Below the pieces are notes generated by a model. The model was not told where the DNA came from. It did not search any database and saw only the letters and a program-made list of their open reading frames with translations. Both the position numbers and the translations under genes were made by a program. From Candidatus Zipacnadia bacterium (GTDB lineage: Bacteria; Armatimonadota; Zipacnadia; Zipacnadales; UBA5352): a DNA stretch of 64,000 bases. Position 1 is the first letter of the stretch; each line of letters begins with the position of its first letter. This document shows, one piece after another, positions 3,876-10,459 of this stretch. The stretch spans positions 1 to 64,000 of the forward strand of contig JALGUJ010000006.1 of the NCBI GenBank assembly GCA_029820945.1, in the 5' to 3' direction.

Positions 3876-3951
3876 GCAAACGGCCGGGCGGGAACGGAGG
3901 TCCGCCCCTCCAAACGCCACGGCGAACGGCGCGTGGGCGTGGACGCTCGTG
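3876..3951. repeat. Intergenic structured repeat, copy 1 (76 bp)
   Basis: gcaaacggccgggcgggaacggaggtccgcccctccaaacgcc...gtggacgctcgtg, identical to 4143-4218. Confidence 0.85.
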
Positions 3952-4047
3952 CCGCGGACCTGCCTACTCCGTCCCGGAGGGCGGGGGGCCGGTAGCGCGG
4001 GCCGTCGCGCGAGGAAGATGAGCATACGGCAACCAAGTCGTACGGAG

Positions 4048-4142: not shown

Positions 4143-4218
4143 GCAAACGGCCGGGCGGGAACGGAGGTCCGCCCCTCCAAACGCCACGGCGAACGGCGCG
4201 TGGGCGTGGACGCTCGTG
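4143..4218. repeat. Intergenic structured repeat, copy 2 (76 bp)
   Basis: Direct repeat of 3876-3951. Confidence 0.85.
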
Positions 4219-4243
4219 GCACGGAGTCGGCCTCCATCCCCCG

Positions 4244-5433: not shown

Positions 5434-5510
5434 AGACGGCCGGGCGGGCACGGAAGCGCGCCCTTCCGTACGGCAAACGGCCCACGGGCGTGGACGCCCG
5501 TGGCACGGAC
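5434..5510. repeat. Intergenic structured repeat, diverged copy 3
   Basis: acggccgggcgggcacggaagcgcgccc...ccacgggcgtggacgcccgtggcacgga; aligns to copies 1 and 2. Confidence 0.7.
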
Positions 5511-5533: not shown

Positions 5534-6952
5534 TCAGCGAGTCAGCGACCACCACGGCCGCATGGTCTCCCTCAGCGGCCTGTCCGTGGTGAGGGCTGCG
5601 AGGCACGCGACGAGGCCGTCCGTCGCATCGTCGTCGCACAGCCGCGAGAACTGGGCGCACTGGCGGAACTTCGCGACCACCTCTGCCTCGCTCACCGCAG
5701 CCGGAGCGAAGACCCGTGCCGGGCACTCCGCGCGCATCAGCCGACGGCCGTCGGTGGTGTGCACAATCACGCCCTGCCACTTGGTCGTGTAAGGCGAGAA
5801 GTCGGCGGGCGGTGTCAGGGGCTCCGGGACGTCGTCCGGCACGTCCACGAACTCGATGGCGCGCGCGAGGTCCGCGACCTCCTCGTCCGCACGGATCGCC
5901 TCGTCCGTCCAGTCCTCCAGTCGCTGCCGGCCGCGCAGGAGCGCGTAGGCAACGCAGTACCGCACGCTGAACTGCGCCGAAACCTGCGGGTCATCGCCGA
6001 GCTCGAATGGCTTGCTGACGAAGCCGCCCTCCCGGTGGCCGAAGATCTCGACGCGGTCGATCTCATGCGGCGACAGGGCCTCCTCCTCGCGGAGCCGCTC
6101 CGCGGCGTGCAACGGCGGATGGCAGCTCCCGCAGGAGGTGTGGCGCTTCACCGAGACGCGCTCGATCTCCCATTGCGGGCGCTCGGCCATGACCTCCTCG
6201 AGCGCCGGCGGCTCGGCGCCATGGTAGACGCGGAAGATGTTGCCCTCACCATCGAGGGCGCCCCTCGGCCCGGTGATGCCCCGCGCGGCCAGGGCCGCCG
6301 CCCACAACGCCGAGCGCGCGGCGAAGCCCGGCTGCAGGCGCTTGGTCAGCGTGCGGTCGTGCAGGGCCTGGCGGTTGCCCGAGGTCTGCGCGTAGTTCAG
6401 GCCCATGGCGTTGGCGCACTGCTCGATGGACAGCCCGAGCAGCCGCGCCGCTGCGGCGACCGCGCCGAAGCCCCCGAAGACGGACGTGGGCAGCCAGTGC
6501 CAGGCGTGCGCGTGAGTCGCCACGTTGCGGCGCGCGATCGCCAGCCGCCCGGCCACCTCAACGCCGAGGATGATCGCCTCAAGCGCCTGGCGGCCGCCGG
6601 CATCGGCCATCTCGCCGGCCGCCAGGATTGCCGGGACCACCACCGAGGTGATGTGCAGCGAGCCGGGGATGTGCACGTCGTCGTAATCGAGCGCGTGGAT
6701 CATCGCCGAGTTTGAGAAGGCCGCGTTCGGCGCGGGGAGCCGCCATCCGCGCACGAGCAGCGACGCCTCCTCCGCTCCGCCCCAGTCGCGCATCTGCTCG
6801 ACGACCTCGGCGACGCCCGGCGCGTCCCAGCCCGCCAGTGCGCAGGCAAGCGCGTCGAGCGTCATCGTGCGCGCGGCGGCGAAGGCCGACTCCGCGATGG
6901 CGTCGGTCGGCGTCTCGACGGCGAGCTGCGACAGCGCCTCGGTGAGCGTCAT
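5534..6952 (-). CDS. MmgE/PrpD family protein
   Basis: 472 aa; SNSAMIHALDYDDVH, GFAARSALWAAALAARGITGP and other family-like blocks. Confidence 0.88.
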   Translation of the reverse strand: MTLTEALSQLAVETPTDAIAESAFAAARTMTLDALACALAGWDAPGVAEVVEQMRDWGGAEEASLLVRGWRLPAPNAAFSNSAMIHALDYDDVHIPGSLHITSVVVPAILAAGEMADAGGRQALEAIILGVEVAGRLAIARRNVATHAHAWHWLPTSVFGGFGAVAAAARLLGLSIEQCANAMGLNYAQTSGNRQALHDRTLTKRLQPGFAARSALWAAALAARGITGPRGALDGEGNIFRVYHGAEPPALEEVMAERPQWEIERVSVKRHTSCGSCHPPLHAAERLREEEALSPHEIDRVEIFGHREGGFVSKPFELGDDPQVSAQFSVRYCVAYALLRGRQRLEDWTDEAIRADEEVADLARAIEFVDVPDDVPEPLTPPADFSPYTTKWQGVIVHTTDGRRLMRAECPARVFAPAAVSEAEVVAKFRQCAQFSRLCDDDATDGLVACLAALTTDRPLRETMRPWWSLTR

Positions 6953-8448
6953 TCGCTCTCACCCATGATCGCGTCGATCTCCGCCTGCAGGCGCTCCAGC
7001 GCTTCCTCGATCTTGTCCCTGCGGGCCTGCTGGCGGTCGCGCGCGTCGCTGAGTGCCTCACGGCGCTTGGCGACCAGCCGCCGTGTCTCCTGCGGCTTCG
7101 GGTCGCCGAGGTTACACGCCGTCTCGTGGAAGTGCTCGAGCCCCATGTCATGCCGGACGGCCTCGTCGCTGAGGTTCGGCTCGGGGTCATTCGAGATGCG
7201 AGCTGCCTCGTCCAGCAGCGCCCCGGTGCACTCCCACGGCCGGATGCCTCGCTCACGCGCGATGCGCACCATGGTGCAGCAGATGCGATGTGCGCAGCGC
7301 CCTCCCAGGCCCCGCTCCTTCACGATGCGGATCGCCAGGTCCACCGCACCCGAGTACCCCTCGCGCACCAGCTCCCACATACGGTCCGCGCGCGGGCGGA
7401 CGTTGGGCAGCAGGTGGCGGAAGATACCGAGGCCGGCCTCGAGTTCGGCCAGTCCGCTGCGGACGTAGCGGTCGGCATGGTAAACGGGCAGGATATCCTG
7501 CAATGGCTCGTTCTTGAAGGAGAACAGGCAGGTCTGCATCTCGCCGAGGACCCGGTTGCAGTTCTCCCGGATGTTCTCGAAGCGATTGCCCGCGTTGGCC
7601 TTGTGCGGCATGAATGAGCTGACACCGCGCCAGGCCATGTCCACGTCGAAGATGTCCCACTCCTCGGTGACCCAGACGTTCAGGTCGAGACAGACGCGGC
7701 TGAGGGTGACCGCGATGTTCGAGGCCGCGAAGAGGATGGTGAGCATCTCCTCCTGGCCGGCCTCGCAGTCGTAAGCCGGCTCGACGGTCTCGTCGAAGCC
7801 CAGCAGATCGGTGATGAGCTCGCGGTCCACGTCCCAGCGGGCACCGGAGCAGGCGCCGCAGCCTCCGGAGTTCATGTTCGTGTGCCGGTAGGCCAGCTCG
7901 AGTTGCTCAAGGCCGCGGGAGAGCCCGTCGTGCACCGCCAGCAGATAGGCCCCCCAGGTGGTCGGCTGGGCGTGGGCCCAGTGGCTGTGGCCGGCCATGA
8001 GGACATCGGCGTGCTCTTCGGCGACATCCAGGACGCTCTCGAGGGTGAGGAGCAACTCGTCGAAGGCATACAGCAGCGACTCGCGCATCATCATGCGCGC
8101 CATCGGCTCCTGGAGGGTGCGTCCGTGGTTGACCGCGAAGGCGGTATCTTCGTCGCCGCCGAGCTTCTCGCGAATCCACGCCTCCCCGCCCCAGCCCTGC
8201 TCTTCGTTCGCCTGGGCGAGCACGGGGAAGAGCTTGCGGACCTCCTCGTCTGAGACATGGCCCTTGCGGTAGAGCATCACCAGCCATGCCTTGTCCATCA
8301 GTGCGCAGAAGGGCAGCCGGTTGCCGGTCTCCTTCACGCGCATGGCGGGCAGCCGGCGGTAGTGGTTCCACTGCGCGGCATCGGGCACGCCGGGCGTGTG
8401 GCGGCGGTGGTCGTGACTGGCCCGGTACTCCTCGGAGTCGAACTCCAT
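6949..8448 (-). CDS. Fumarase/aspartase superfamily C-N lyase (argininosuccinate/adenylosuccinate lyase-like)
   Basis: 499 aa; SSFMPHKAN signature, GHSHWAHAQPTT; 4-bp overlap (ATGA) with the downstream MmgE/PrpD gene. Confidence 0.88.
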   Translation of the reverse strand: MEFDSEEYRASHDHRRHTPGVPDAAQWNHYRRLPAMRVKETGNRLPFCALMDKAWLVMLYRKGHVSDEEVRKLFPVLAQANEEQGWGGEAWIREKLGGDEDTAFAVNHGRTLQEPMARMMMRESLLYAFDELLLTLESVLDVAEEHADVLMAGHSHWAHAQPTTWGAYLLAVHDGLSRGLEQLELAYRHTNMNSGGCGACSGARWDVDRELITDLLGFDETVEPAYDCEAGQEEMLTILFAASNIAVTLSRVCLDLNVWVTEEWDIFDVDMAWRGVSSFMPHKANAGNRFENIRENCNRVLGEMQTCLFSFKNEPLQDILPVYHADRYVRSGLAELEAGLGIFRHLLPNVRPRADRMWELVREGYSGAVDLAIRIVKERGLGGRCAHRICCTMVRIARERGIRPWECTGALLDEAARISNDPEPNLSDEAVRHDMGLEHFHETACNLGDPKPQETRRLVAKRREALSDARDRQQARRDKIEEALERLQAEIDAIMGESE

Positions 8449-8740: not shown

Positions 8741-9154
8741 TCAGTCCTCCTCGTCGAGTCCCAGCGCTATTGCCGCGGCCTCCAGGTCGGCGTCGGCGAA
8801 GGTGAGCACCGCGGCATAGCGCCGTGCGGCGGACAGCGCCGCGAAGTCCTCGATGCTGAGGCCCGCGTTCACGATGGCCCCGGTGATGTCGCACAGAGCG
8901 GCGACCTCGTCATCGCTCTCGATCAGGAACACCTGGCGTGTCTGTAACGCGACGCCTCGCTGTGCCGCAAGCTCACGTACGGCCTGCACGTCCTCGGGTA
9001 TCGCCATGAGCGCGGTCCCGCGCTTGCGCTGGCTGGCGATGGCGAGCATATTCACCCCCGCGTCGCGCAGCGTGCACAGGACGTGATGCAGCACTCCGAC
9101 CTCGTCCCTAACCTGCATCACCACCGCCGTCACCTGTCGGATTGAGTGAGACAT
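8741..9154 (-). CDS. ACT-domain protein (tandem ACT-like)
   Basis: MSHSIRQVTAVVMQVRDEVGVLHHVLCTLRDAGVNMLAIAS...CDITGAIVNAGLSIEDFAAL; start at internal Met of ORF 8741-9181. Confidence 0.75.
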   Translation of the reverse strand: MSHSIRQVTAVVMQVRDEVGVLHHVLCTLRDAGVNMLAIASQRKRGTALMAIPEDVQAVRELAAQRGVALQTRQVFLIESDDEVAALCDITGAIVNAGLSIEDFAALSAARRYAAVLTFADADLEAAAIALGLDEED

Positions 9155-9196
9155 TGCCACACCCGGCCTCTCGCAAGGCATACTACCCCATTTGCC

Positions 9197-9400: not shown

Positions 9401-10459
9401 CTACACGTCGCGCGGCAGCCGCGCCTCCACCGCCGGCATCGGCTCGAAGGGCCTGTGCGGGAGTGTCTGATACCAGTAGGCGGTGGAGGAGTAGTCGTCC
9501 GAGCGGTGATTCGCGTGACCGTGCTCGATGCTCACGCGAATCCGCTCCTGGAAGCTGATCGGGTCGGCGATGTGGAAGCGGTAGACCGTCCACTTGCCCT
9601 CCCAGTTGGTGTGCTCCCGGTTGTACAGCGAGGTGCCGTGGTAGAGGCCGCGCACGTCCTGCATGCCGTAGGCGTGCGAGAAGTAGTCCTCCGTGCCCGT
9701 CCCGTGCAGTGACGGGGGCCAGGTGTCGCCGTCGATGAAGATCATGTCATCGCCCTCGCCCCACCAGTGCCCGTCCCAGTTGTGGATGGAGAGGTTGCAG
9801 CCCACGTAGTGGCCTCGGCCCTCGGCCTCGAGGATAAGGTAGTTGTCCTCGCCGCTGAGGTTGGGGACCTTGTTGAGCTTCCGCTCCGCCCACATGGCGT
9901 TCGGCTCGGCCCAGCCCTCGCAGGGGTTCTCGCGCCGCCAGCAGGCGTGGAAGTAGAGGTGATCGGGGATCGGCTCGTCCTGCTCTTCGTAGTCCACGTA
10001 GAAGTAGAGCGGCCGGGGCTCTTCACCCTCGTTGGCCACCTCGATCCGAGCGCCGCTGGAGAAGGGCATCGGGAGCCAGCAGTTGAAGGCCGAACGCGGC
10101 TCTCCGCTTGGGTGGTGAGTCATGCTCAGGGCGATCGACTCCCACTGGGCGATCTCGCCGTGGCCCACGCCGAAGAAGTCGCCCATCGGCACCTCGACAC
10201 TGGGCTCCGCCTGATCGTCCCAGTACATGCGGATGAGCACCCGCCTCGGCCAGGCCGGCTCATCGGAGCTGGAGGTCATCCAGATATGGTTGATGCAGCC
10301 GGCACCCTCGATCTCCGCGATGGTCTTCACATCGCCGGGCTCAAAGCGCCAGTAGTCGGCATTCGCCCCGCTCTCGTCCCAGCTCGAGATGCGCTTCGAG
10401 CGGGTGTTGCGCGGCAGGATCAGCCCTCGCAACGGGTTGGTCAGACTCGGCATGTCCAT
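9401..10459 (-). CDS. DUF2961 domain-containing protein
   Basis: 352 aa; SSWDESGANADYWRFEPGDVKTIAEIEGAGCINHIWMT...DGDTWPPSLHGTGTEDYFSHAYG. Confidence 0.85.
   Translation of the reverse strand: MDMPSLTNPLRGLILPRNTRSKRISSWDESGANADYWRFEPGDVKTIAEIEGAGCINHIWMTSSSDEPAWPRRVLIRMYWDDQAEPSVEVPMGDFFGVGHGEIAQWESIALSMTHHPSGEPRSAFNCWLPMPFSSGARIEVANEGEEPRPLYFYVDYEEQDEPIPDHLYFHACWRRENPCEGWAEPNAMWAERKLNKVPNLSGEDNYLILEAEGRGHYVGCNLSIHNWDGHWWGEGDDMIFIDGDTWPPSLHGTGTEDYFSHAYGMQDVRGLYHGTSLYNREHTNWEGKWTVYRFHIADPISFQERIRVSIEHGHANHRSDDYSSTAYWYQTLPHRPFEPMPAVEARLPRDV

Follow-up and report, generated by a model that had tools for sequence, protein, structure and literature searches.

A lyase of the fumarase/aspartase superfamily whose gene runs into that of an MmgE/PrpD-fold protein raises the question of which acid two such enzymes would handle together. 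Such a gene pair lies within the window, the whole 64,000-nucleotide stretch of Candidatus Zipacnadia bacterium DNA that was analysed. An earlier note on this DNA had read the lyase signature SSFMPHKAN and a 4-bp ATGA overlap between the two genes, and had proposed a lyase/epimerase route resembling the degradation of iminodisuccinate (IDS) or EDDS, rather than arginine biosynthesis or the methylcitrate cycle. The features of the locus are the following:

5534..6952, minus strand: MmgE/PrpD-fold protein, 472 aa, ATG start (ORF, Pfam, alignment, tree)
6949..6952, minus strand: ATGA stop/start overlap, lyase stop with MmgE start (sequence; also in locus L005)
6949..8448, minus strand: lyase, fumarase/aspartase superfamily, 499 aa, ATG start, “GRT-xxE” subtype (ORF, Pfam, alignment, tree)
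8741..9181, minus strand: ACT-domain protein, upstream of the lyase (Pfam; also upstream in genome G009 at L005, absent in L004)
9224-9197, minus strand: sigma-70-like match, upstream of the ACT gene (sequence match)
9401..10459, minus strand: DUF2961 protein, next gene upstream of the ACT gene (Pfam; conserved in G009)

Codon-position GC supports both reading frames (GC3 of 0.90 and 0.92 for the lyase and MmgE ORFs), and bases 6949-6952 read TCAT on the plus strand, that is, ATGA on the coding strand, so that the overlap is confirmed by the ORF coordinates and by the bases themselves. The lyase belongs to the fumarase/aspartase superfamily, with a Lyase_1 domain (1e-22, 81 bits against a cut-off of 27) and an SSxMPxKxN loop bearing the catalytic Ser, in which the signature first reported, SSFMPHKAN, is read again. 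Its partner belongs to the MmgE/PrpD family, with both Pfam domains (MmgE_PrpD_N at 1.2e-61 and MmgE_PrpD_C at 1.7e-17), the catalytic His and two Lys. AlphaFold models built from two-sequence alignments reached a mean pLDDT of 41.6 and 52.7.

The lyase–MmgE pair is rare and patchy, yet it is conserved as a pair. Among the 291 genomes of the phylum, lyase matches at E <= 1e-45 occur in three: the window’s own genome (G000), the same-family genome G009 (87% identity) and G003 (30%). The G003 lyase is a different clade member, and the window-type lyase is thus present in two of the 291; close MmgE matches are found in the own genome and G009 only, the rest standing at <=33% identity. In G009 (locus L005) the genes run DUF2961-ACT-lyase-MmgE, matching the window in order and in stop/start overlap, the lyase being 87% identical to that of the window and the MmgE fragment, cut by the contig end, 68%. 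A contig scan returned one relative only (L004), on a contig of another genome that is labelled Paceibacterota and looks misbinned; here the lyase (65% identity) is followed by a co-directional MmgE gene (51%) 313 nt away, with flanks that differ from those of the window. A gene-neighbourhood survey, one of the checks first proposed, therefore finds the pair co-directional in all three loci, with the stop/start overlap in two. Because the same order and overlap recur in L005 and a co-directional pair in L004, the arrangement is more than chance.

The surroundings of the window pair do not name its substrate, since neither a transporter nor a kinase nor any further pathway gene adjoins it. The ACT-domain protein is a possible effector-binding regulator, and the neighbours are of glycan type (GH123-like and DUF2961 at the window, BNR and GH4 at L004) and may be unrelated to the pair. 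The window also holds a direct repeat rich in GC, with 83-nt copies at 3876-3958 and 4143-4225 that agree at 98% of positions and a third, partial copy at 5436-5509, just downstream of the MmgE gene. Both the window and contig C158 encode prepilin-type N-termini, which seem to resemble those of Armatimonadota.

Against the ArgH equivalog TIGR00838 the lyase scores 172.9 bits, below the cut-off of 279.5, and the AU test rejects a grouping of the window lyase trio with ArgH (p 0.00026; here and below the p values are guides, some of the groupings having been picked after the first tree was viewed). In G009 a true ArgH (483.6 bits) stands alongside the window-type lyase (168.7 bits), which therefore is not needed as ArgH there. 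ArgH identity was rejected on the score, the AU test and the absence of the RND motif, and the initial view that the lyase stands outside arginine biosynthesis is upheld. Its best PDB match is the EDDS lyase of Chelativorans BNC1 (6g3d, E 2.8e-34; PDB 6G3D-6G3I); 6G3H is described as EDDS lyase (PMC12363623), and the PDB names 6g3d argininosuccinate lyase. The two enzymes share the superfamily and the SS-MP-K-N loop, and in the alignment the window lyase keeps R110, S155-H156 (the T-H of ArgH), the S277-S278 loop, K283 and N285. They differ in that ArgH and EDDS lyase both read GRSRND where the window lyase has GRTLQE (including R110 and T111) with a three-residue deletion, and in that EDDS lyase reads TQRK where the window lyase reads SHWA. 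R112, N113 and Q159 are substrate-proximal in EDDS lyase (PMC12363623); R112-N113 is replaced by L/Q or a gap, and the position of Q159 is taken by H156. In a lyase tree built without the BY6 C-N lyase sequence, a joint group of the window trio and EDDS lyase is rejected by the AU test (p 0.007, the EDDS lyase row being the part printed in the PDB alignment rather than the full chain), as is one that joins the trio to the proteobacterial lyases linked to MmgE (p 0.0005).

The MmgE protein, the sole MmgE_PrpD_N match in its genome, scores 24-30 bits against prpD models whose cut-offs are 458-950, and the genome gives no match to TIGR01800 (2-methylcitrate/citrate synthase II), grounds on which a PrpD/methylcitrate identity was rejected. 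In the MmgE tree a 100/99 branch separates it from E. coli PrpD, and a grouping of the two is borderline (AU p 0.056), so that the proposed exclusion of the methylcitrate cycle holds on scores and gene content and is less firm on the tree. The best PDB match is the IDS epimerase of Agrobacterium BY6 (2hp3, E 1.2e-37; PDB 2HP0/2HP3), with which the window protein shares the MmgE/PrpD fold, a lyase partner and the catalytic His and Lys. It keeps H86, D89, H100 (IDS epimerase His99), K204 and K269, equivalents of which coordinate or activate the C4-dicarboxylate in this family (PMC12290011). The position of Tyr145, the second base beside His99 in IDS epimerase (PMC7347537), is occupied by His149 in the window and L004 and by Trp in L005, and that of His150, in the Trp-His motif, by Leu154 in all three, with the same register in the HMMER alignment. 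In methylsuccinate isomerase the counterpart of His150 is His152, which coordinates a carboxylate (PMC12290011); this match was made by motif rather than by sequence alignment. That (S)-(R)-methylsuccinate isomerase is likewise an MmgE/PrpD-family enzyme with alpha-proton chemistry on a C4-dicarboxylate (PMC12290011); it differs in having Tyr148, His152 and an itaconate gene cluster, of which the window holds no equivalents. Because the Tyr145 and His150 equivalents are missing, the sequence makes a two-base epimerase activity of the IDS type unlikely, and single-base chemistry would fit the window MmgE better, as would a substrate that carries just one of the two carboxylates. The AU test rejects a clade that joins the MmgE trio to IDS epimerase (p 0.0026, again for the part of the chain printed in the PDB alignment) or to the lyase-linked Agrobacterium/Cereibacter MmgE proteins (p 0.001). 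The two PDB matches show only which solved structures come nearest by sequence, and few members of either superfamily have been solved. The phylogenetic placement by which the earlier note proposed to check its idea thus sets the pair apart from ArgH, EDDS lyase and IDS epimerase, with PrpD left at the borderline.

Some other MmgE–lyase pairs keep more of the IDS-type residues. Plasmids of Agrobacterium sp. 33MFTa1.1 (L043 1265-11345) and Cereibacter sphaeroides KD131 (L051 786-9106) each carry genes for an asparaginase, an amino-acid ABC transporter, an MmgE protein, a lyase annotated ArgH and a SIS protein, joined in the former by a PfkB kinase; Chelatococcus has a lyase, an amino-acid ABC transporter and an MmgE protein. 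The Cereibacter pair shows a 4-bp overlap, as in the window. In Agrobacterium and Cereibacter the MmgE proteins have retained both Tyr and Trp-His of the IDS type, and their partner lyases SRND. These two clusters differ from the window in gene order (MmgE then lyase) and fall in separate clades in both trees; unlike them, the window pair has no amino-acid transporter or asparaginase beside it. As natural counterparts of the IDS pair they are better candidates than the window genes. The nearest families are fructoselysine-6-phosphate deglycase for the SIS protein and fructoselysine 6-kinase for the PfkB kinase, each at a score below cut-off, and the gene content makes fructosyl-asparagine/aspartate a possible substrate of these clusters; a literature search on MmgE together with Amadori compounds or asparaginase returned nothing relevant. 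Since the Agrobacterium/Cereibacter partners lie outside the window groups in both AU comparisons, MmgE and ArgH-superfamily lyases were probably brought together on several separate occasions, which argues for a functional link. The lyase/epimerase pairing first proposed therefore survives as a real and recurring module of MmgE and ArgH-superfamily lyase, and lacks support as a claim of IDS/EDDS kinship.

In the lyase tree the window lyase groups at 100/99 with a paralogue from its own genome (contig C163), two haloarchaeal plasmid lyases and one G003 lyase, on a long window-clade branch (1.42). GRT-x-x-E is read in all lyases of this clade except that of G003 (ART). The C163 paralogue is 38% identical to the window lyase and scores 240 bits against ArgH; at its locus (L069 2-2205) the GRT-type lyase gene overlaps a gene for a ComA-type phosphosulfolactate synthase (ComA Pfam 5.8e-52). 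The haloarchaeal lyases (L034 3235-11089, L035 3325-12233) stand beside UxaA-type subunits, a TauE/SafE exporter and a succinate-dehydrogenase-like FAD/FeS pair. The UxaA pair may be the sulfolactate lyase SuyAB, these gene groups are probably devoted to sulfonate catabolism, and their lyases, annotated argH, are likely mis-annotated as argininosuccinate lyase. One haloarchaeal lyase of the clade scores 323 bits, above the ArgH cut-off; the ArgH model alone therefore does not exclude non-ArgH lyases. A further GRT-reading member of the ArgH superfamily is XcbC of bacterial coenzyme M biosynthesis, which eliminates phosphate from phosphosulfolactate (PMC8727900). A joint clade of XcbC with the window group is not rejected (AU p 0.24), XcbC being a long branch of unsure placement; the two differ in sequence (~22% identity; 122.8 bits against the NF052535 cut-off of 575), and no ComA gene lies beside the window pair. 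The ComA and GRT lyase genes on C163 look like a sulfonate pair of the XcbB-XcbC kind that stands apart from the known coenzyme M clusters. ComA relatives on Chelativorans and Natrinema plasmids had no lyase neighbour, and literature searches on haloarchaeal lyases or on sulfoacrylate brought up no relevant paper.

How the pair should be read depends on how these lines of evidence are weighed. Literal degradation of iminodisuccinate, EDDS or another aminopolycarboxylate, in which MmgE epimerises and the lyase cleaves the C-N bond to give fumarate and aspartate or a diamine, has in its favour, as its strongest point, the two top PDB sequence matches and is nevertheless quite unlikely: direct membership of the pair in the IDS/EDDS families was rejected on the AU tests (p 0.007 for the lyase, 0.003 for MmgE) and on the loss of the RND motif, Tyr145 and His150, the SHWA segment departs from EDDS lyase, and no aminopolycarboxylate uptake genes lie near the pair. 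The route favoured by the earlier note thus finds no support in the trees or in the residues. We regard as very improbable a methylcitrate- or cis-aconitate-type MmgE to which the lyase is adjacent by accident. The PrpD grouping is not quite rejected and this is the genome’s only MmgE/PrpD match, but the prpD equivalogs stay far under cut-off with no TIGR01800 match in the genome, Leu replaces the conserved histidine of Trp-His, and the ATGA overlap and the conserved pairing across loci speak against accident. It is extremely unlikely that the window lyase replaces argininosuccinate lyase in a genome that has ArgG (514 bits) and, in its assembly, no ArgH above the family cut-off: that assembly is just 90.7% complete, and the missing ArgH may be an assembly gap, G009 holds the orthologue together with a true ArgH, the RND motif is absent, the ArgH grouping is rejected and the C163 paralogue scores higher against ArgH than the window lyase does.

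A sulfonate substrate is a serious rival reading, if a rather unlikely one. The lyase would act on phosphosulfolactate, sulfolactate or sulfoacrylate, and MmgE would prepare or process that acid. The GRT clade, with its own-genome member overlapping a ComA-type gene and its haloarchaeal members adjoining SuyAB-like genes, the exporter and the succinate-dehydrogenase-like pair, points this way, as do the GRT of XcbC and the loss of the carboxylate-binding His in MmgE, which fits a substrate other than a plain dicarboxylate. Against it, no sulfonate gene lies near the window pair, the SuyAB assignment is by family only, and the branches of the window clade and XcbC are long. Similarly tentative is the idea that the GRT lyase represents a new subfamily whose active site was retuned for sulfonated or other non-dicarboxylate acids and which, joined in this bacterial group by a recruited MmgE that is short of one carboxylate-binding His, would process a natural sulfonate or a sugar-linked succinate in two steps, by a so far undescribed route.

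The best reading is that the window pair is a new form of the MmgE and C-X lyase module. We give an even chance to a two-enzyme, probably catabolic module that acts on a substituted succinate-like acid and follows the same plan as IDS epimerase and its C-N lyase, a reading drawn from three loci only, in one of which the MmgE gene is cut by the contig end. Relative to that known pair, the window enzymes are probably separately evolved subfamilies with a different substrate. The MmgE/PrpD protein would carry out alpha-proton chemistry (isomerisation or dehydration) on a succinate-like acid bearing a substituent, with His100 as the main base and Lys204 and Lys269 stabilising the enolate; the lyase would then beta-eliminate the substituent, which may be bound through N, O, S or phosphate, via its Ser277/Ser278 loop, giving fumarate or a fumarate analogue. 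We infer that both enzymes serve one pathway, that they act in this order and that the direction is catabolic.

The partnership of MmgE with a lyase was reportedly described on a man-made chelator. The recurrent and apparently independent MmgE–lyase pairs gathered here offer candidates for its role in nature, and a 2025 survey by BlastP had found a single IDS epimerase sequence (PMC12290011). The GRT lyases, some of them publicly annotated as argininosuccinate lyase, present a testable case of mis-annotation, and the candidate fructosyl-asparagine route of the Agrobacterium and Cereibacter plasmids may show what IDS-type epimerase/lyase pairs do in nature.
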